DNA from: Anaerolineales bacterium HSG24
Lineage (GTDB): Bacteria; Chloroflexota; Anaerolineae; 4572-78; J111
Assembly (NCBI GenBank): GCA_030377895.1
Contig: JAUCGB010000005.1
Location: 1 to 64,000, forward strand
DNA length: 64,000 nt
Reading direction: 5' to 3'
The notes below the pieces were generated by a model, which was not told the origin of the DNA, did no database searches, and saw only the letters and a list, made by a program, of their open reading frames with translations. Made by a program: the position numbers and the translations under genes. Below are positions 19,607 to 35,241 of this stretch, one piece after another (within the stretch, counting starts at the first letter, position 1; every line of letters begins with the position of its first letter).

Positions 19607-19726
19607 GAACTCCTTAATCCTTAATATGAGTTGGACTGTTCAGATAGACATGAACTCTAGTCAACATGCCTCACAACTCTACTAAATTTCTATTAGCAAG
19701 AATTTGCCTCTTGCAAGGTGTCATAC

Positions 19727-20242
19727 ATGTCATCACTACAGAAAAAAGTTTGTCTACTTGGTGAGTTTGCCGTTGGAAAAACAAGCCTCGTGCGCCGGTT
19801 TATCGAAGGTGTCTTTGAAGATAAATATCTAAGTACCATCGGTACCAAAGTTAGTCGTAAAAAATTTCAATTCAGCAAAGGCACACAAAATATTGGTCTC
19901 ACCATGTTGATTTGGGATTTGGCTGGTGGTGAAAAGTTTGACCGTATGATGCGGAACTACTATCGTGGCTCTGCGGGCGCTATTATAGTTTGTGATTTAA
20001 CTAGACCAGAAACCACTCAGGCATTGGAGAGATATGCTCAAGATTTTTGGAGCATTAATGCCAATGCCCCATTAGTTGTTGTGGGTAATAAAGCCGATTT
20101 GGTGGATGAGCGTCGAGTTTCTGATGAAGAATTGGCCGTTGCTGCCAAAAAATGTCAAGCAAATTATTTTGTCAGTAGTGCTAAAACAGGTAAAGATGTC
20201 GAAACACTTTTTGAGGCATTAGGGCAAAAAATTATTGCATGA
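19727..20242 (+). CDS. Ras/Rab-like small GTPase
   Basis: A 171-residue single-domain GTPase of eukaryote-like Rab/Rho type. G1 GEFAVGKTS (12-20), G2 Thr in STIGTKV (37-42), G3 WDLAGGEKF (63-71), G4 NKAD (121-124), G5 SSAK (150-153). The catalytic Gln after the G3 glycine (WDTAGQE in Rab, Ras Q61) is Gly68 here, so unaided hydrolysis should be slow and a GAP or longin-type partner may be needed. There is no lipidation motif or membrane segment. I preferred ATG 19727 (AAGGTG upstream) over the in-frame GTG at 19718. It is followed by the coiled-coil and longin-like membrane protein genes. Confidence 0.93.
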   Translation: MSSLQKKVCLLGEFAVGKTSLVRRFIEGVFEDKYLSTIGTKVSRKKFQFSKGTQNIGLTMLIWDLAGGEKFDRMMRNYYRGSAGAIIVCDLTRPETTQALERYAQDFWSINANAPLVVVGNKADLVDERRVSDEELAVAAKKCQANYFVSSAKTGKDVETLFEALGQKIIA

Positions 20243-23881: not shown

Positions 23882-25795
23882 CTACTCCGTTGGTTCTATA
23901 TCACCATTCCCGTGCGCTTCCATATCTTTTAAGGTACGGGCCACCTCCTCAATCGCTAACCATTGTTTGCGATACAAATCCGATTCGCTCATGGCTAGAC
24001 GATGGGCAACATCTCTAACTCGCATCCCCTGTATAAACTTCAAATCCAAAATATTATAAATTAACCATTCGGTGGCATTCATTTGGCGCTCCCCATTGGG
24101 TCGTTGTTTTTCTATGGCTTCGTTGAGAACCGACCGTAAAGCGCGTACTGAATTATCATCATTTTCCTTCAAATTATCCTTAACCACTTTTAAATCGAGC
24201 AGGGGGCTACTGGTTAATTTTGGCCCTCCCCAATAATGTTTAAGCGCGTCCCGCACCAGTTGGGTAAAATCTGTTTTGTGAATCGGACTGTCCTTTTTCA
24301 CGATTAACTGAGTTGTACCGGGGTATGGAATCGCCCGACGTAACTGTTGCACTCGCTCCATTTCGGGGATGATGTTCTTTAGAGCGACAAACACCTCTTG
24401 TTGCAGTAGCCTGTCCTCTAAGGCTAGTTCAGCCTGAGCTAATAGCTGACCGGCCAACTCAGCCTGATTGAGGGTTAGGTCTTGGCTTTCGGTCTGAGTT
24501 TCAATGCCCAATAATCCGAGCGACTGACTACGAGTTTTGTTTTTTAGAATCACAAACCAAAAGTTGTTTTGTCGGACAAATTGATGTTCTGCCTGTCCAT
24601 TTTTAGGGTCAATCAGGGCCGCAACATCAATATCGGTTAAAGCATCGTTAATCTGCTCGGTTGAGCCAACTTGGGCCTCTAAGCGAGTGCCTTGCTTGGT
24701 TTCTAGGTTGTAGATAAATCCGGTTTCGACCCGCAACAGTTCACACAGGGTAATCAGAATGTTCTCTAGGGCTTGTTGCAGATCAGTGGTGGTCAGCAAT
24801 CGGCGGTCGAGTTCACTAATCCAAGCAATTTCTAGTCGGTCTTGGTAAAATAGGAGTTGGTCAATAAATGGTTTGCCCAAATCAATCAGCAATTGCGAGA
24901 CGATAAACACAACCACAATCGAACTCTGCAAAATAAAATTACGTGGTAGGCCCCAAATTTGTGGTTGTTTGGGTAACACCTGAATAATGACAATGATCAT
25001 GGTGGCAACCATCGTGCCACGTAACAAAAAGTGAACCAAGTTGTGTTTAACCACTCGTTCGGGGTTTAATACGCCCACAAAGGCCACACTATAGGCCATC
25101 AACATAATCATAATAGCGATGACGATATTGCCACAAAACATGGTAAACAATAATACAGGTGGAGATAGGGTGGGGGTGCTGGCGATGAGCATGTAAGGGT
25201 ACACGCCCAAGGCCGGAGCGGCAAACGAAATCGACAGATAAGTCATGCGTCGCCGTGTGGCCGAGGTTAAGGCTCGGTTACGGGCTAAAAATATCTTGTA
25301 AGCCCCCCATATTAGGGTGGCATAAAAGTAAAAGGTAAAAACTGGAAAGAATGGCCCGGCCCGAAACTGGGTCACACTTTGGGACTGAAACGGATCATGT
25401 ACCAGATATTCGGTTTGTAGAACAAGGAGTAAGAGCAGAAATCCAAATAAATAGGCGGTGAACACAGCAAATCTACGCCGTGATGAATAAGCATTCGTAG
25501 TGCGTAGAATCGCATCGGCAAAATGGAGATAGGCTGCTGGAACAAAAGCGATGCCAATCCATTGAAATTTAAGCCAAAGGAGCGCATCGTCCACATTCGT
25601 CACCCGAAACAGAGCCACATCACCTGCGTAGGTAAAACAGACACCAGCTAACAGCATCACGAAGGCTTTTCCAACGGCACTTTTGAAATTATGCACCAGC
25701 ATGTAAACAAACAAAGAAAATGCCAAAATAGTGATGGTTGAGGCGAGGATTTGATTGAAACCGGACAAAATATAAATTACATCAATGTTGACCAT
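23882..25795 (-). CDS. 7TM-type receptor with GAF domain, no kinase core
   Basis: A 637-residue protein. The N-terminal ~330 residues form about eight membrane helices resembling the histidine-kinase N-terminal 7TM sensor region (FQWIGIAFVPAAYLHF, then YLSISFAAPALGVYPY). A GAF-like domain follows (~345-470, LDRRLLTTTDLQQALENIL, VETGFIYNL). The C-terminal third is soluble and helical, ending in a helix-turn-helix-like MRVRDVAHRLAMSESDLYRKQWLAIEEVART. No H-box or ATP-binding domain is present, so it is not a kinase by itself. I set ATG 25795 because the 24 codons upstream come from repeat S. It could be a receptor that signals through an HTH-like or protein-binding tail. Confidence 0.78.
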   Translation of the reverse strand: MVNIDVIYILSGFNQILASTITILAFSLFVYMLVHNFKSAVGKAFVMLLAGVCFTYAGDVALFRVTNVDDALLWLKFQWIGIAFVPAAYLHFADAILRTTNAYSSRRRFAVFTAYLFGFLLLLLVLQTEYLVHDPFQSQSVTQFRAGPFFPVFTFYFYATLIWGAYKIFLARNRALTSATRRRMTYLSISFAAPALGVYPYMLIASTPTLSPPVLLFTMFCGNIVIAIMIMLMAYSVAFVGVLNPERVVKHNLVHFLLRGTMVATMIIVIIQVLPKQPQIWGLPRNFILQSSIVVVFIVSQLLIDLGKPFIDQLLFYQDRLEIAWISELDRRLLTTTDLQQALENILITLCELLRVETGFIYNLETKQGTRLEAQVGSTEQINDALTDIDVAALIDPKNGQAEHQFVRQNNFWFVILKNKTRSQSLGLLGIETQTESQDLTLNQAELAGQLLAQAELALEDRLLQQEVFVALKNIIPEMERVQQLRRAIPYPGTTQLIVKKDSPIHKTDFTQLVRDALKHYWGGPKLTSSPLLDLKVVKDNLKENDDNSVRALRSVLNEAIEKQRPNGERQMNATEWLIYNILDLKFIQGMRVRDVAHRLAMSESDLYRKQWLAIEEVARTLKDMEAHGNGDIEPTE

Positions 25796-25815
25796 AATCA
25801 GATTTGCGTATTTTA

Positions 25816-25850
25816 CAAAAGTTTGTCGATTCGTCGAACTACAGATTTTT
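25816..25850. repeat. 35-bp repeat S, copy 2
   Basis: Inverse of the 12563-12597 copy (GTCGATTCGTCGAACTAC core). It lies directly upstream of the 7TM receptor start. Confidence 0.6.
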
Positions 25851-26017
25851 TGGACACGGATAAACACAGATTGACACGTTTATCTGTGTCCCATATTTAA
25901 CCTTGTTTAGAAATGATAAACTTCTGATTTTAATCTGAAATGGATTTTTTATCCATAATTTATAAATCGCAAACCTTTAGGCATGAGCATTAATTAACTA
26001 CGTCGAAGGCGATGTCG

Positions 26018-28570: not shown

Positions 28571-30454
28571 TCATTCATTGGTTAATTCTGTATCTAATGG
28601 TACTAAAATTATAAACAGCACCCCATCACCAAGCTCACTTTCGCAATTTATCGAACCGTTCAGCTTTTGGGTGACAATATTATAAATAATATGCAATCCC
28701 AAACCCGTTCCGATTTGTTTGTTGGTGGTAAAGAAAGGATCGAAAATTTTGACCAGATTATCAGCCGAAATGCCTCGACCATTATCTCGATACTGTAAAC
28801 ATAACTGCTCATTTTGACTGATGGACAAAGCACATTCGATGGTTATTTGTCCTTCGTTTTGGCCTCGAAAACCGTGAACAATGGAATTAATAACCAGATT
28901 AGTTATTATTTGGGCAAACACGCCCGGATAGCTATTCAATTCTAGATTTTCATCGCAGTCAAGCACAATTTGGATGGACGTTGTGTTGAGTTGTGGTTCC
29001 AAACTACGGATAACATCTTGTAGATAAGCCTTCACCTTGAACTGCCGGCGCGATTCGACAGCTTGATCAACCGACACCTGCTTGAAACTTTTAATCAAAT
29101 CGCCTGTTCGTTGCAAATTACTCAACAGTATTTGAGTGGTTTGACGGACGAATTGCAGATAGTTTTCCAAATCGGCGCGTTTCATTGCTTTATCTTGATA
29201 CAGAGCAGAAAGTTGTTGGCTTCTATTAATTACCGCAGAAGTCGCCATAATGCTATTGCCGACAGGCGTGTTTATTTCGTGGGCTACCCCGGCCACCAGA
29301 TTGCCAAGCGCGGCCATTTTTTCGGATTCTACTAATTGTTGCTGGGTTTCCTGTAGTTCTTTCAGAGTTTGAGCCAACTGATTCTTCTGGGCTGTAAGTT
29401 GCTGATATTTACGTGCATTGTCAATAGCCAAACCGCACACCCCCACAAAGGAGACGGCTAGGTTAAGGTATCGCTCCTTGTACTCCGGAAAGGCAATCCC
29501 ATTGACCTCCAATATGCCCACAGTTTCATCACGATAACCAATTCGCAGGATAAAACTGGCCTCTGCTTCGACCCATGCATATTCTCCCGCAAAGTTCTCT
29601 AAGCGATTTTGGACAGCGGCACTATCGGCAATCCATCCCGAATGTGAACGAACTTGTTCCGCCGGTTTTCCATTCTGTATGGACAAATAAAATAGCTCTT
29701 TGGGAGCAAAGAGCATACTGAACAGGTCGAAGATGCGTTCGATGGCATCCACCTCGGTCAACACCTGAGCCAAATCGCTGAATACATCCATCGCCATCGC
29801 ATAATCGGTCATTTCTCGCCGACTTTCGTTCAAGGCAGTCGTTGCTTGTTCCTTTTCATCTTTCAGTCGCCATTCCAAGACGATTTTTGTCATGAATAGT
29901 CGCAAAAAATCTAACCCAATCGGTACAATATCAAAAGGAAGTCCGACAAAATCGGCAAATACTTGCAGGCGTTCATTACTTTTTTTATCCACTCCAGTAT
30001 CCAGTAACAATAATTTGCTGGCGGATTCAGTAAAAAACTCGCGCAATATTTCGCCGTCATTCTCATCGTCAAATCCCAACTCATTCACTCTAGCTCGCCA
30101 ACCAGCCAACCAGCCGGGAGTTAGCAAGTACGCCTTTTCCTTAAGATAACTATTGATGATATCTTGATTGGTGAGCAGGGAAAAGCATTGAGTCATACAA
30201 TGAACCTGACAGCCCTCCATCTCTTTGGTTATATTTTGTAATCTGGCTAAACAGTAACTGCCCACTACTATAATTTGACTGTAATCCATGTCGGAGGGAA
30301 GAGTTTTGGCTATATCATCCCATTCGAGTTGCGGCCCGTAGCATCTTGCCGGAAAGGTGGCAACCGTCACATCATTAAAATCTTCCGATTTGAGGACGGT
30401 TGCCACTTCTCTTTTTATAAACGGGCAGACAAGAACACCCAGTTTATTAGTCAT
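28571..30454 (-). CDS. histidine kinase with DUF1638-like Cys-rich sensor and GAF domain
   Basis: A 627-residue cytosolic sensor kinase. Residues ~1-200 resemble DUF1638-type proteins found near corrinoid methyltransferases (LTPGWLAGWRARVNELGF, KLLLLDTG, PIGLDFLRL) and contain C10, C38, C68 and a C82-x3-C86-x3-C90 cluster that could bind a metal or cofactor. A GAF-like domain (~220-350) follows, then a coiled coil, H-box GNLVAGVAHEINTPVG and HATPase (RDNGRGIS, FDPFFTTN, GTGLGLHI). There is no receiver. Its ATG overlaps the methyltransferase stop by eight bases, so the three genes form one coupled operon. I infer that it senses the corrinoid or methyl state of its partners. A decayed copy of its 3' end lies at 35430-35690. 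Confidence 0.85.
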   Translation of the reverse strand: MTNKLGVLVCPFIKREVATVLKSEDFNDVTVATFPARCYGPQLEWDDIAKTLPSDMDYSQIIVVGSYCLARLQNITKEMEGCQVHCMTQCFSLLTNQDIINSYLKEKAYLLTPGWLAGWRARVNELGFDDENDGEILREFFTESASKLLLLDTGVDKKSNERLQVFADFVGLPFDIVPIGLDFLRLFMTKIVLEWRLKDEKEQATTALNESRREMTDYAMAMDVFSDLAQVLTEVDAIERIFDLFSMLFAPKELFYLSIQNGKPAEQVRSHSGWIADSAAVQNRLENFAGEYAWVEAEASFILRIGYRDETVGILEVNGIAFPEYKERYLNLAVSFVGVCGLAIDNARKYQQLTAQKNQLAQTLKELQETQQQLVESEKMAALGNLVAGVAHEINTPVGNSIMATSAVINRSQQLSALYQDKAMKRADLENYLQFVRQTTQILLSNLQRTGDLIKSFKQVSVDQAVESRRQFKVKAYLQDVIRSLEPQLNTTSIQIVLDCDENLELNSYPGVFAQIITNLVINSIVHGFRGQNEGQITIECALSISQNEQLCLQYRDNGRGISADNLVKIFDPFFTTNKQIGTGLGLHIIYNIVTQKLNGSINCESELGDGVLFIILVPLDTELTNE

Positions 30455-31496
30455 CGTTTTCTACCCAATTTAACGGATAGCGTCCCCATTTGTGAACTGC
30501 TTCCGAAATGGCCATCAATATTTCATCCGGCACTTGCCAAGGAATTTCGCCATGATTATCCGACAGAATAAAACCTCCGCCCGGGCCAGCTTGGGCAATG
30601 ACATCTTTGACAATTGTCTCTGTTTGTTCCGGTGTCCAGCGGCGCATTTCGATACCATTCAAGTTGCCCAGAACCGTCAGTTTGTTCTGACATGCGGCTT
30701 TGATTTCGGCTAGGTCTTCGAGAACGCTGACCCCAATAATTGCCGTTCCGGTCTGAGCCAAATCACCCACAATAGGCAGACAGCGGCCTGAAGCCATAAG
30801 CGTTGCCGTTGGCCCTTTGATTTGAGCCAGCGTTTGTTGAGCCACCTTGAAGCCGGTTTTCAGATACATTTCACGGGAAGTGATAGTTGTGGATGAAATC
30901 GGGTCAACATAGGCAATTGCCGTTGCCCCGACCTCTAATTGGGCATTTGACCAGGCTACGCAGAACGCCTCATTTATCTTCATCAACCGCTCGAACAAAT
31001 CAGGTTGTTCAACCATCAATTCGATGTATTTATCAAAGCCCATTTGCATCACCGGCAGAGAAAAGGGAGATATGGCAACCCCAATAATGGGAGCCTCATC
31101 GCCCACTTTGGCTTTCAATAACTCGGTGGTTTTTAACACTTTCAGCAAACAAGCCGTCTCTTCAATTTTTGGCGGTTCCAAATGTTTGATATCCTCCGCG
31201 CTACGGATAATCGGCATACCAGAATTTGGAGGGCCATCATCGCAAAAAACCACCTCAGATCCCCAGGCTTCTACTTCGATGGCAACGTAAAAGAAACTGG
31301 TGAGGCAATCGTGACGGTATTTGGCCCGCATCCTAAGTTGCCCCTCTACCACGTTCTCCGCTTTGGAAAAGTATTCCTTAATTGACAATCCTAACTCTTT
31401 CGCGCCGTGCATGGTTGCTAACAAAAAGAAAGGAACACGATCCGGTTCTTTATGCCCTAAAGTAGTTAAAACACGCTGTAAAGATGTCTGTGTCAT
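30447..31496 (-). CDS. MtaA/CmuA-like (UroD-fold) methyltransferase
   Basis: A 349-residue protein of the uroporphyrinogen decarboxylase fold used by methylcobamide:thiol methyltransferases. Family features include RVLTTLGHKEPDRVPFF, AISPFSLPVMQMGFDKYIELM and GFILSDNHGEIPWQVPDEIL. The zinc site of MtaA-type enzymes (His-x-Cys plus a later Cys) is altered: the first pair reads SGRC (C239), and the position of the last Cys reads DNHGEIP (H315). It could use a different metal set, another acceptor than coenzyme M, or act as a sensor. Start ATG 31496 overlaps the corrinoid protein stop (ATGA); the 28 upstream in-frame codons lie inside that gene. True haem UroD activity is unlikely given the neighbours. 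Confidence 0.82.
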   Translation of the reverse strand: MTQTSLQRVLTTLGHKEPDRVPFFLLATMHGAKELGLSIKEYFSKAENVVEGQLRMRAKYRHDCLTSFFYVAIEVEAWGSEVVFCDDGPPNSGMPIIRSAEDIKHLEPPKIEETACLLKVLKTTELLKAKVGDEAPIIGVAISPFSLPVMQMGFDKYIELMVEQPDLFERLMKINEAFCVAWSNAQLEVGATAIAYVDPISSTTITSREMYLKTGFKVAQQTLAQIKGPTATLMASGRCLPIVGDLAQTGTAIIGVSVLEDLAEIKAACQNKLTVLGNLNGIEMRRWTPEQTETIVKDVIAQAGPGGGFILSDNHGEIPWQVPDEILMAISEAVHKWGRYPLNWVENDD

Positions 31497-32119
31497 GATT
31501 TTTCTCCTGTTATTTGAGTGATAATATTTACCGCTTCCGATGCTGTTTTTCCCATTGCATCTGCTCCTATTTCTTGCCATAGTTGGTCGTCAAATCGAAA
31601 CGGCGCACCACCAACTACAATCTTCACATCGCCGTTCAATCTGTCTCTAACCTCTTTGATTCGCAAAGCCGATGGAAACATAAGTGTTGAGAGCAAGAGT
31701 ACCCGCACACCATCAGCTTTGACCCGCTGAATGAGACCCTCGGTTTCCACCCGCCCATAGTCCAACAATTCAAATCCACTGGCCCGCAACATCGAATAAA
31801 CAATGCGTTTGCCCAGCATGTGATGATCCTCAAAAACGGCAACAGCCATCTTGGGTTTTTCTTTTCGATCCGGATCGCCCGGCGGAAGGAGGGCATCCAC
31901 TATTCCCTCGCAAATACGCCCGCTCATGTAAACCTGAGACAGGGCAACGCTTCCGTCTTCCCATCCCTCCCCCACCTCTTCTAGGGCAGGAATAACCACT
32001 TTTTCTACAAATTCAGGAGGCGATAGACGCTGCCTCCCCTCGGCTGAAATTCTTTTGGCTGCTAATCGATCAAGCATTAACAGTGCTTGCTTAAACTCAC
32101 TTACAAGGGCTTTCGTCAT
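31493..32119 (-). CDS. corrinoid (B12-binding) methyltransferase protein
   Basis: A 208-residue protein of the MtaC/MtbC/MtgC type. It has an N-terminal helical cap (~1-88, FVEKVVIPALEEVGEGWEDG) and a Rossmann-like B12 domain (~90-205) with the lower-axial-ligand motif DHHMLG (D98, H100, G103), LLLSTLMF and VVGGAPF. Such proteins shuttle methyl groups on cobalt between a substrate-specific methyltransferase and an MtaA-type partner, which follows immediately. No substrate-specific methyltransferase or reductive activator is in the window. AAGGAAAAT precedes the ATG. First gene of the three-gene operon. Confidence 0.9.
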   Translation of the reverse strand: MTKALVSEFKQALLMLDRLAAKRISAEGRQRLSPPEFVEKVVIPALEEVGEGWEDGSVALSQVYMSGRICEGIVDALLPPGDPDRKEKPKMAVAVFEDHHMLGKRIVYSMLRASGFELLDYGRVETEGLIQRVKADGVRVLLLSTLMFPSALRIKEVRDRLNGDVKIVVGGAPFRFDDQLWQEIGADAMGKTASEAVNIITQITGEKS

Positions 32120-32271: not shown

Positions 32272-35241
32272 TCATAAAAACTGTGCCACAAATTCACAAA
32301 TATCATCCGCATCAAACGATTCTACAAATCCTTGCATATGTAGCACAAATGGTTTGTATTTCTTATCCATTGCCTCAATACAAGCTAACTGTTCTGCAAT
32401 CTCTATGAAATCAAACATCTGCGCTGATTCCAAAAGAGATACTAATTCGGTGACGGGTGGAGGGATAATATCGGCTTGATCAACTAAGTCAAGAGCATTA
32501 TGTTCCTCTTCTGTTTCATAAATCCATGTCAATTTCAAGTGTGTCTGTAGCTTGTGAAAAAGTTCAGTCATGTAAATTGGCTTTTGTAGATAATCATCGC
32601 CCGGTGGCTTTTTGTGAATATTCGCCGTAACCCGTGATGAATCGGCTGACACGATAATCACTTTTGTATCGGGCTGATTCTTCTTGATACGTTGGGTCGC
32701 CTCATACCCATCCATAATCGGCATAACCAAGTCCATCAAAATTAGGTCAGGCCGAAATTCAATGGCTTTATTCAATCCCTCCTGACCATCATTAGCGGCT
32801 ATCACTTTAAAACCCAGCGGCTCTAAGATATTGATCAATACCCCTTGATTATGAAACACATCATCCACCACCAAGATTGTTCGTTCTTCGCCTTCAAAGC
32901 CGATAATATGTTGTTTTTCCACCTTTTGAGTATTTTGCCAGGCTTCTACTTCGTCAAGATTCAAATCAAACCAAAAGGTACTGCCTTCCCCAAGCCGACT
33001 CTTTACTTGCAGTTCACCACCTAATAATCGAGTCAATTTACGACTGATTGCCAAGCCAAGTCCCGTCCCTTCAATCATTAAGGCTTGTTCACCCACTTGT
33101 TTGAAGGGAGAAAAGATGTCAGTCAATTTATCTGACGGAATCCCGATACCTGTATCGGTAATTTGAAAGCAGATTTTTCCAAAAGAGTTCGGAACTTTAG
33201 AAGTAGCCATCTCCCTAACCTCCTCCCAAAGGGCGGGAGAACTGGCTTCCTCCCCTTTGGGGGGACTAGTCTCTGTACTCTCCGTCCGACGATAAACCGA
33301 AAAGGTAATGCCGCCATGCTCAGTAAATTTGATGGCATTGTTGAGTAGATTAATGATAACTTGACTCAGCCGTTTTTCATCACTGCGAACGGCAACAGGT
33401 AAATTTGGCTCAGCCTCAAAGTTAAGTCGTATATCTTTCTTATCGGCTCGAACCTTAACCATTGCCACAATATTTTCGATGAAGGGTAGAAAAGCAAAAC
33501 TACTTTCAAAGAGTTCCATACGCTCGGCTTCCATTTTAGAAAAATCCAAGATGTCATTGATGAGATTGAGTAGATGATTGCCACTTTGTTGGATGATATC
33601 CAGTTTGGTTTTATGATCATCATCGAGCCTCTTGTCCCGTTCCAAAATTTGAGCATAACCCAGAATACCATTGAGCGGAGTTCGCAATTCATGGCTCATG
33701 TTGGCAATAAACGCGCTCTTAGCTCGGTTGGCGGCTTCAGCGGCTCTTTTGGCGTTTTTCAATTCATTTTCAGCCTGCTTGCGTTGGGTGATGTCGCGCA
33801 CGACAGCTAGAATCACCATCTGCCCATACTGCTCAACGATATTCGAGTTGATTTCGACGGGGAACTTCTCTCCCGATTTTTTGATATGAACCCCCTCAAA
33901 GACCATTTGACCTGTTTCAAGCAGTTTCTGGTGTTGATCTGGCGCGACATGTTGCTCGGCATCCACCTTTTTTGTGATATCCTTGGCGGTAAGTTTGAGA
34001 AGTTCCTCTCTGGAATAGCCGTAGCGTTTACAGGCAACATCATTAACTTCAATGAACGAGGCGAATCCCTCCTGCCGTAGAGGATACACAAATATCGCAT
34101 CATCGACAGAATTAAAGAAGATTCGGAACCGCTTCTCTTGCGCTCGTGCTACCTCCTCCATCCATTTTTGATCGGTAATATCACGATTACTGCCGCGTTG
34201 TCCTAAATAATCTCCGTTCTCACTGTATACCGAATTGCAAACATGGCTGATCCAGCGTGCCTTGCCACTACGGGTGATAATGCGAAATTCGATTGGCTCT
34301 ATCTCGCCTGTTTCTGTCACTAAATGCTTGTGGCCAATGATCGTTTTTCGGTCATCTGGGTGGATAATGCTCTCTAGTATCACCTGGTTTTGGATGAATT
34401 CATCAGCGCTATAGCCAGTAATCCGCTCGCATGATGGCGAAGCATAAACATGGTTTCCGGTGGGGTCAACCCAATACTCCCAAGCATAAGTAAAATCCGC
34501 CACCGTACGATATTGTTCTTCCTTGACCGCTAACTCTCTGGTTCGTTCTTCAACTTTTCGTTCCAATCCCTGACGATAACCTTCCACGGTCATGATTGTT
34601 TTGTAAGCCCGTAAACTCGACATAACAAAAGAAAATAGTTTATTAACGGTCAATTCTGTTTTGGTTATGTAACCGTCAATGTCATAAGAAACAACAACTT
34701 CCCTCTCCGGCGCATCGCCAGGATACCCAGTTCGCAAAACAAGGCGAATAAATTGATTGTGCAACGTTTTCCGAACAAACCTCGCCAAATGCAAACCTGC
34801 ACTATGCGATTCCATCACCACATCAAGCAAAACCAGCGCAATGTCGGGTTGTTCGGTCAGAATTTGCTGTCCTTCTTTCCCAGAATAAGCCCCCATTATT
34901 TGCAACGGTTTATTATCAAAAATAAAGTTATCGAGCGACAATCTAGTTAAAGTATGCACATCCTCATCGTCATCGACAACCAGCATCTTCCATTCTTTTA
35001 TATTTTCGATATTTCTACTAGTCGTAGGAAACGGACTATCAACGTCTGAAATCTTCCATTTTTCGATACTTTCATCTGTCGCAAAACTTGCTCCATCTAC
35101 ATCTTCAACAACTGCTTCTGTTTCGTCAGCAAAAATATCGTCGAAAAAATCGTCCGCAGAGCTTGACCTATCTGCATCTTCAACAACTGCTTCTATTTCG
35201 TCATCAGCAAAAATGTTGTCGAAAAGATCGTTATCATTCAT
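32272..35241 (-). CDS. REC-PAS-PAS hybrid histidine kinase (paralogue A)
   Basis: A 989-residue cytosolic hybrid kinase. The acidic N-terminus (1-55) is a duplicated ~27-residue unit (FDNIFADDE / FDDIFADET). Then receiver (~70-200, VVDDDEDVH, LLDVVMES), PAS (~240-360), PAS (~370-490), HisKA with NMSHELRTPLNGILGY, HATPase (FQITDTGIGIP, GTGLGLAISR), a second receiver (VVDDVFHNQG, LMDLVMPIMDG) and a tail with FDADDICEFVAQFL. A repeat-derived loop (SPPKGEEASSPALW, 33211-33275) interrupts the HATPase before its G1 box. AGGAG precedes the ATG. The C-terminal ~480 residues are almost the same as in the next two kinases. The cognate output regulator is unknown. Confidence 0.93.
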   Translation of the reverse strand: MNDNDLFDNIFADDEIEAVVEDADRSSSADDFFDDIFADETEAVVEDVDGASFATDESIEKWKISDVDSPFPTTSRNIENIKEWKMLVVDDDEDVHTLTRLSLDNFIFDNKPLQIMGAYSGKEGQQILTEQPDIALVLLDVVMESHSAGLHLARFVRKTLHNQFIRLVLRTGYPGDAPEREVVVSYDIDGYITKTELTVNKLFSFVMSSLRAYKTIMTVEGYRQGLERKVEERTRELAVKEEQYRTVADFTYAWEYWVDPTGNHVYASPSCERITGYSADEFIQNQVILESIIHPDDRKTIIGHKHLVTETGEIEPIEFRIITRSGKARWISHVCNSVYSENGDYLGQRGSNRDITDQKWMEEVARAQEKRFRIFFNSVDDAIFVYPLRQEGFASFIEVNDVACKRYGYSREELLKLTAKDITKKVDAEQHVAPDQHQKLLETGQMVFEGVHIKKSGEKFPVEINSNIVEQYGQMVILAVVRDITQRKQAENELKNAKRAAEAANRAKSAFIANMSHELRTPLNGILGYAQILERDKRLDDDHKTKLDIIQQSGNHLLNLINDILDFSKMEAERMELFESSFAFLPFIENIVAMVKVRADKKDIRLNFEAEPNLPVAVRSDEKRLSQVIINLLNNAIKFTEHGGITFSVYRRTESTETSPPKGEEASSPALWEEVREMATSKVPNSFGKICFQITDTGIGIPSDKLTDIFSPFKQVGEQALMIEGTGLGLAISRKLTRLLGGELQVKSRLGEGSTFWFDLNLDEVEAWQNTQKVEKQHIIGFEGEERTILVVDDVFHNQGVLINILEPLGFKVIAANDGQEGLNKAIEFRPDLILMDLVMPIMDGYEATQRIKKNQPDTKVIIVSADSSRVTANIHKKPPGDDYLQKPIYMTELFHKLQTHLKLTWIYETEEEHNALDLVDQADIIPPPVTELVSLLESAQMFDFIEIAEQLACIEAMDKKYKPFVLHMQGFVESFDADDICEFVAQFL

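Follow-up and report, generated by a model that had tools for sequence, protein, structure and literature searches.

The window analysed here is a stretch of 64,000 nucleotides from Anaerolineales bacterium HSG24 (contig JAUCGB010000005.1, positions 1 to 64,000), and the element under study is a set of three consecutive minus-strand genes within it. In reading order, they encode a corrinoid (B12) protein of 208 residues (31493..32119), a barrel protein of 349 residues with UroD/MtaA fold (30447..31496), and a cytoplasmic histidine kinase of 627 residues (28571..30454). The coordinates bear out the overlaps of 4 and then 8 nucleotides that an earlier note, made from the sequence alone, had described. 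The overlap between the B12 and UroD genes is an ATGA, which places the real UroD start codon ATG at 31496; the mechanically called open reading frame begins further upstream, at 31580. A scan for promoters and terminators between the three genes gave no signal above noise. The trio probably represents a B12-based sensor of a kind not yet described; we found no account of such a module in the open-access literature.

The B12 protein consists of a helical cap (Pfam B12-binding_2, 9e-13) and a Rossmann B12 domain (B12-binding, 2e-14). Both domains and the DxHxxG...S...GG signature are present, as in methyltransferase corrinoid proteins. The signature residues (D98-x-H100-x-x-G103, S144 and G170-G171) are invariant among 39-40 relatives, and the window protein, which keeps all corrinoid-contact residues, presumably binds a corrinoid. 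Its cap aligns to CarH ahead of methyltransferase corrinoid proteins, with a tryptophan (Trp53) common to both, which raises the possibility of a light sensor with adenosylcobalamin in the B12 protein, the more so as phototrophic carriers exist. However, the Glu-His pair on the cap helices, which matters in CarH, corresponds to Val63-Tyr64 here, carriers also include sulfate reducers and methanogens, and the UroD partner would be left unexplained. With the Trp shared and the Glu-His missing, we rejected a CarH-like light sensor as highly improbable.

The barrel protein matches the Pfam family URO-D (PF01208, 7e-55), and its AlphaFold2 (AF2) model superposes best on MtaA (4ay8, template modelling (TM) scores 0.84/0.87). 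MtaA and CmuA are also its best curated relatives, well under the cut-offs of their families (98.4 bits against 235.4 for NCBIfam mtaA_cmuA, 102.3 against 244 for PRK06252). The MtaA-like methyltransferase of the earlier note therefore stands as far as the fold is concerned, but not with respect to an MtaA-type zinc site. In 34 aligned UroD sequences from modules of this kind, H-x-A-S-G ... D-N-H-G-E-I-P replaces, with few single changes, the HxC...C of MtaA, which we take to be its zinc ligands. Because the zinc-site cysteines are gone, a plain MtaA-type methyltransferase is ruled out, and the barrel appears to work without MtaA zinc-thiol chemistry. Residue 233 of the window protein is Leu (codon CTT, 30800-30798 on the minus strand), at the position of the first His of HxASG in 33 of the 34 relatives; this is a one-base change, either real or an assembly error.

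The kinase starts with a DUF1638 domain (about residues 1-180; 29915..30454), followed by a long helix (182-228), a GAF domain (about 230-355; 29390..29767), HisKA (H-box at 391) and HATPase_c (514-621), all on the minus strand. The suspicion that its Cys-rich N-terminus might be DUF1638 proved right, since PF07796 matches residues 56-185 (1.4e-13) with 51.5 bits, compared to a gathering cut-off of 27. Six cysteines lie among the first 200 residues (10, 38, 68, 82, 86 and 90); in DUF1638 relatives, Cys10, Cys38 and Cys90 are near-invariant and Cys68 is kept in most. The window kinase is the only DUF1638 match in its own genome, the assembly of which is 75% complete. An AF2 model of residues 1-355, built with 29 sequences (mean predicted local distance difference test score, pLDDT, of 90), has an alpha/beta domain, the long helix and the GAF domain. 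The GAF assignment, a detail absent from the earlier note, is firm: residues 209-355 align to the GAF domains of PDE5A, PDE6 and KdpD with Z of about 15-16 (VIA-align). GAF matches took up the fold-search list for the N-terminal model, and a DUF1638-GAF profile had no credible match among PDB sequences. In the catalytic core, HATPase_c is recognized clearly (4e-20) and HisKA weakly (0.014), with an H-box (AHEINTPVG, 391), an N-box (NLVINSI, 519) and G-boxes (DNGRGI, 557; GTGLGLHI, 582). The protein has no strongly hydrophobic stretch and was assigned to the cytoplasm.

A scan of a genome collection that was keyed only to the GAF motif of the kinase, and blind to neighbours, returned 40 named loci, several of them from metagenome bins. 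At 36 of the 40, B12 and UroD genes lie directly upstream of the sensor gene, in this order, and usually overlap each other by about 4 nucleotides. For independently fetched loci, this is far beyond chance. The association of DUF1638-kinase fusions with B12 proteins, for which the earlier note had proposed a neighbourhood search, is thereby supported, and identical kinases without corrinoid genes, its potential counterexample, were not found among the 40 loci where there was enough sequence. The exceptions are a locus with B12 and two DUF1638 genes, but no UroD (L110), a second GAF copy that shares its contig with a complete module (L133, with module L128), and two contig ends (L140 and L142). 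The order of the trio recurs in at least eight phyla, with the output end of the sensor exchanged. Carriers are found in Chloroflexota, Aminicenantes, Desulfobacterota, Pseudomonadota, Myxococcota, Synergistota, Bacillota and methanogens, and include mat phototrophs as well as sulfate reducers.

The reverse search, with UroD alone, covered about 1,190 genomes (400 Chloroflexota, 395 Desulfobacterota and 398 Bacillota) and gave 19 strong matches (E < 1e-100, counting the centre genomes), 17 of which are in the module. One of the other two adjoins a B12 gene and a PAS-histidine kinase (HK)-REC protein without DUF1638 (G320), and one stands alone (G578). Most of the weaker matches lie outside such a module, which is sparse in each of the three phyla (about 1-2% of the sampled genomes). 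More distant UroD-like genes, with the motif W-S-x-G and H/N-Q-x-E/D-I-P, were seen beside a GAF-HisKA kinase without DUF1638 at three loci (L144, L145 and L146), two of which (L144 and L146) also have a B12 gene. At another locus, a second B12-binding protein with an unassigned N-terminus of 150 residues directly follows the DUF1638 kinase (L111:8900-10015).

The output of the sensor takes many forms. It is a HisKA kinase in the window and in L103, L110 and L111, a HATPase kinase in Methanocalculus and relatives, HisKA_2 in L108, a kinase-REC in L104, L106 and some Bacillota, GGDEF in Chloroploca, Oscillochloris, Viridilinea, Thiocapsa, Methylobacter, Synergistaceae and some Bacillota, and SpoIIE in Sporomusaceae (L134), while in Desulfotignum, Desulfamplus and Desulfobacula the GAF protein stands alone beside hybrid kinases. 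On a UroD tree that spans seven named phyla plus Aminicenantes, there are at least seven output changes among six output types. The pairwise distances of B12, UroD and DUF1638 are correlated (rho 0.75-0.85, with 0 of 500 permutations as high), although common descent of the carriers accounts for part of this correlation. DUF1638 travels with the B12/UroD pair even as a separate protein, as judged from an unfused form with four genes that overlap by 4 nucleotides (B12, UroD, DUF1638 and GAF/PAS-HK-REC; G612, L155:4470-8879). A swappable output on a constant input speaks for a sensory module. We consider it likely that the three genes form one such module in the cytoplasm, in which the B12 and UroD proteins detect, DUF1638-GAF reads the pair and the fused output responds. 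The earlier idea that the methyltransferase pair is the sensing part is thus upheld in so far as the pair forms a sensory unit with the kinase, judging by the 36 of 40 loci and the swapped outputs.

Alternatively, the genes could represent an ordinary methyl-transfer operon, catabolic or anabolic, with its own regulator, so that the B12/UroD pair would be metabolic and not sensory. Both fold families are metabolic, and the mec cassette shows that such mixtures exist (PMC9768040). However, the window lacks RamA and a substrate methyltransferase, as noted before, and neither RamA (PF14574) nor MTTB (PF06253) was found in the 75% complete assembly. A screen of 24 carriers, four Dehalococcoidaceae among them, found no RamA in 10, of which three are Chloroflexales genomes with a completeness of 99-100% and four are Thiocapsa, and no MTTB in 22 (MtaB and DHPS-type partners were not searched). 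Because RamA and MTTB were not found in many carriers, near-complete ones included, a catabolic operon is argued against, and methylotrophy was rejected as its purpose. Moreover, outputs are swapped while B12 and UroD remain constant, and GGDEF and SpoIIE would be odd outputs for a pathway regulator. A methyl-transfer operon is therefore an unlikely explanation of the trio.

For the sensory module, we suggest the following mechanism. The B12 protein, which has the residues for it, would hold a His-ligated, base-off corrinoid. The UroD barrel would dock on the corrinoid face and present or test a ligand or methyl donor, by a chemistry other than that of the MtaA zinc-thiol site. DUF1638 would contact the corrinoid protein and tell corrinoid states apart, for example Co(II) or unloaded from alkylated. 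The signal might then pass via the long helix and the GAF domain to the kinase, from which a phosphorelay might reach a REC protein; the REC-bearing hybrid kinase encoded next door is one possibility. This candidate partner (989 residues, REC-PAS-PAS-HisKA-HATPase-REC, 32272..35241 on the minus strand) is encoded 152 nucleotides upstream of the B12 gene. In a genome of the same genus (G001), a kinase of 806 residues is encoded directly downstream of the module, and its N-terminal REC region is 48% identical over 182 residues to that of the 989-residue kinase. For the relay to neighbouring receivers that the earlier note envisaged, this is only suggestive. Elsewhere in the window, a protein of 661 residues (23882-25867, minus strand) has a seven-transmembrane histidine-kinase N-terminus, no HisKA or HATPase match, and a C-terminus that looks like a helix-turn-helix, and a Ras-like small GTPase (PF00071, 1e-37) is encoded at 19718-20242 on the plus strand of this bacterial DNA.

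Three versions of the sensory module differ in what is sensed. The UroD protein may methylate the corrinoid from a specific methylated or halogenated compound, so that the kinase reads methyl-Co(III), a tentative idea, close to the methyl-donor supply of the earlier note, that draws on the closeness of the UroD fold to MtaA, on rdhA genes beside the Dehalococcoidaceae branch discussed below, and on the mec cassette for dichloromethane, with consecutive genes for HK, corrinoid protein, UroD-type methyltransferase I (MTI) and response regulator (PMC9768040). The lost HxC...C site, and the failure to find RamA, the maker of Co(I), in the 10 carriers, argue against it. So does the presence of the module in Methanocalculus, which is hydrogenotrophic.

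Equally tentatively, the kinase may report Co(II) versus Co(I) or alkyl forms, and hence cell redox state or oxygen, with the DUF1638 cysteines as docking or redox element. Free DUF1638 genes adjoin RamA in many loci. A Phaeobacter mutant in one of them, PGA1_c13340, is rescued by methionine and has a fitness profile in common with a RamA-like protein, which links DUF1638 genetically to RamA-like corrinoid reactivation and methionine synthase, although no function was proposed (PMC5764234). The near-invariance of Cys10, Cys38 and Cys90 and the range of carriers, from mat phototrophs to sulfate reducers and methanogens, would also fit a redox signal. It does not explain, however, why nearly every module retains a UroD barrel with invariant D-N-H-G-E-I-P. 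Finally, loading of the B12 protein could itself be the signal and match B12-dependent metabolism to corrinoid availability. This version requires no donor and agrees with the retention of all corrinoid-contact residues, but it leaves UroD without a job and the Dehalococcoidaceae homologue has lost the cobalt-ligating His, making it quite improbable.

The pollutant-respiring Dehalococcoidaceae hold a distantly related, diverged branch, with 1-3 DUF1638-PAS-HK fusions per genome (DUF1638 match with E 2e-14). At all 13 loci read (L078-L089 and L157), the kinase gene is immediately preceded by a gene for a protein of about 200 residues, and there is an rdhA-like gene no further than about 8.5 kb away; most loci continue with a response regulator, and about eight of the systems are directly adjacent to rdhA. 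Given how many rdhA genes these genomes contain, the proximity is weaker evidence than it appears. In a profile comparison, the upstream protein came out as a remote relative with B12 fold (E 7e-8, probability 94.6); it lacks the cobalt-ligating His, and there is no UroD gene at the 13 loci. Two of the kinase copies look inactivated, one by an insertion element (L084) and one by a broken frame (L086). It is conceivable, if rather doubtful, that the module is a widespread and so far undescribed type of chemical sensor in which a corrinoid protein and a repurposed methyltransferase barrel react with a small methylated or halogenated molecule, that DUF1638 passes the state of the corrinoid to interchangeable outputs, and that the Dehalococcoidaceae regulators are a diverged branch of this system. 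If true, such a reactive corrinoid sensor would explain how Dehalococcoidaceae recognize chlorinated substrates from inside the cell. The module would, more generally, offer a testable candidate for the input of a subset of the RdhS kinases beside dehalogenase genes relevant to bioremediation, which have been described as cytosolic and of unknown input (PMC13390414).

Several points weigh against a sensory module. We found no experiment on any of its members in the literature. No single part is universal, since Desulfobacteraceae forms lack DUF1638, L110 lacks UroD, and a module-type UroD occurs alone in L153. The window protein itself has Leu233 in place of an otherwise conserved His. It could also be that the UroD and B12 proteins are still catalytic and share no more than their regulation with a sensor that responds to something different. 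If the module is sensory, DUF1638, a domain with a corrinoid-linked phenotype and no proposed function, gains a place as an input domain, and a corrinoid-plus-enzyme module joins the short list of B12-based sensors.

Among known systems, MtaC/MtbC with MtaA/MtbA of methanogens also combine a corrinoid protein with DxHxxG and a UroD-fold methyltransferase II (MT2), and the UroD model of the window superposes on MtaA 4ay8 (TM 0.84), but the module has HxAS...DNHGEIP for HxC...C and a link to a signalling protein, and its operon in the window is without methyltransferase I (MT1) and RamA. CarH/LitR photoreceptors and the B12-binding, GGDEF-annotated entry 8j2y likewise use a corrinoid-binding domain as signalling input, and the cap aligns to CarH, but here the corrinoid protein is separate, UroD barrel and DUF1638 are added, and the CarH Glu-His is not conserved. 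MsmS of Methanosarcina senses heme. MsmS and RdmS resemble the window kinase in being sensor kinases of the cytoplasm with a link to genes for corrinoid methyltransferases, but they have no H-box and reportedly do not act as autokinases (PMC11784639), unlike the window kinase with its AHEINTPVG. In the mec cassette of dichloromethane degraders, MecA-D are a PocR-HK, a corrinoid protein, a UroD-superfamily MTI and a response regulator, and other mec cassettes also carry the corrinoid-reactivation genes MecGH (PMC9768040). Kinase, corrinoid protein and UroD-type protein are thus encoded by adjacent genes as in the window, but the kinase has PocR in place of DUF1638-GAF and the set sits inside a catabolic cluster. 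For MecC, to which no role has been assigned, a part in sensing comparable to that proposed for the UroD protein here is conceivable. A subset of the RdhS/RdhP systems of Dehalococcoides and Dehalogenimonas (PMC13390414) has a cytosolic DUF1638-PAS-HK with the gene for a B12-fold partner directly upstream, but this partner lacks the cobalt-ligating His, UroD is missing at the loci read, and PAS stands in for GAF. Free DUF1638 proteins (PF07796) such as Phaeobacter PGA1_c13340 have the same domain with a similar Cys pattern and an association with corrinoid proteins and RamA, but they are separate proteins with no signalling domain, linked to the reactivation of methionine synthase.

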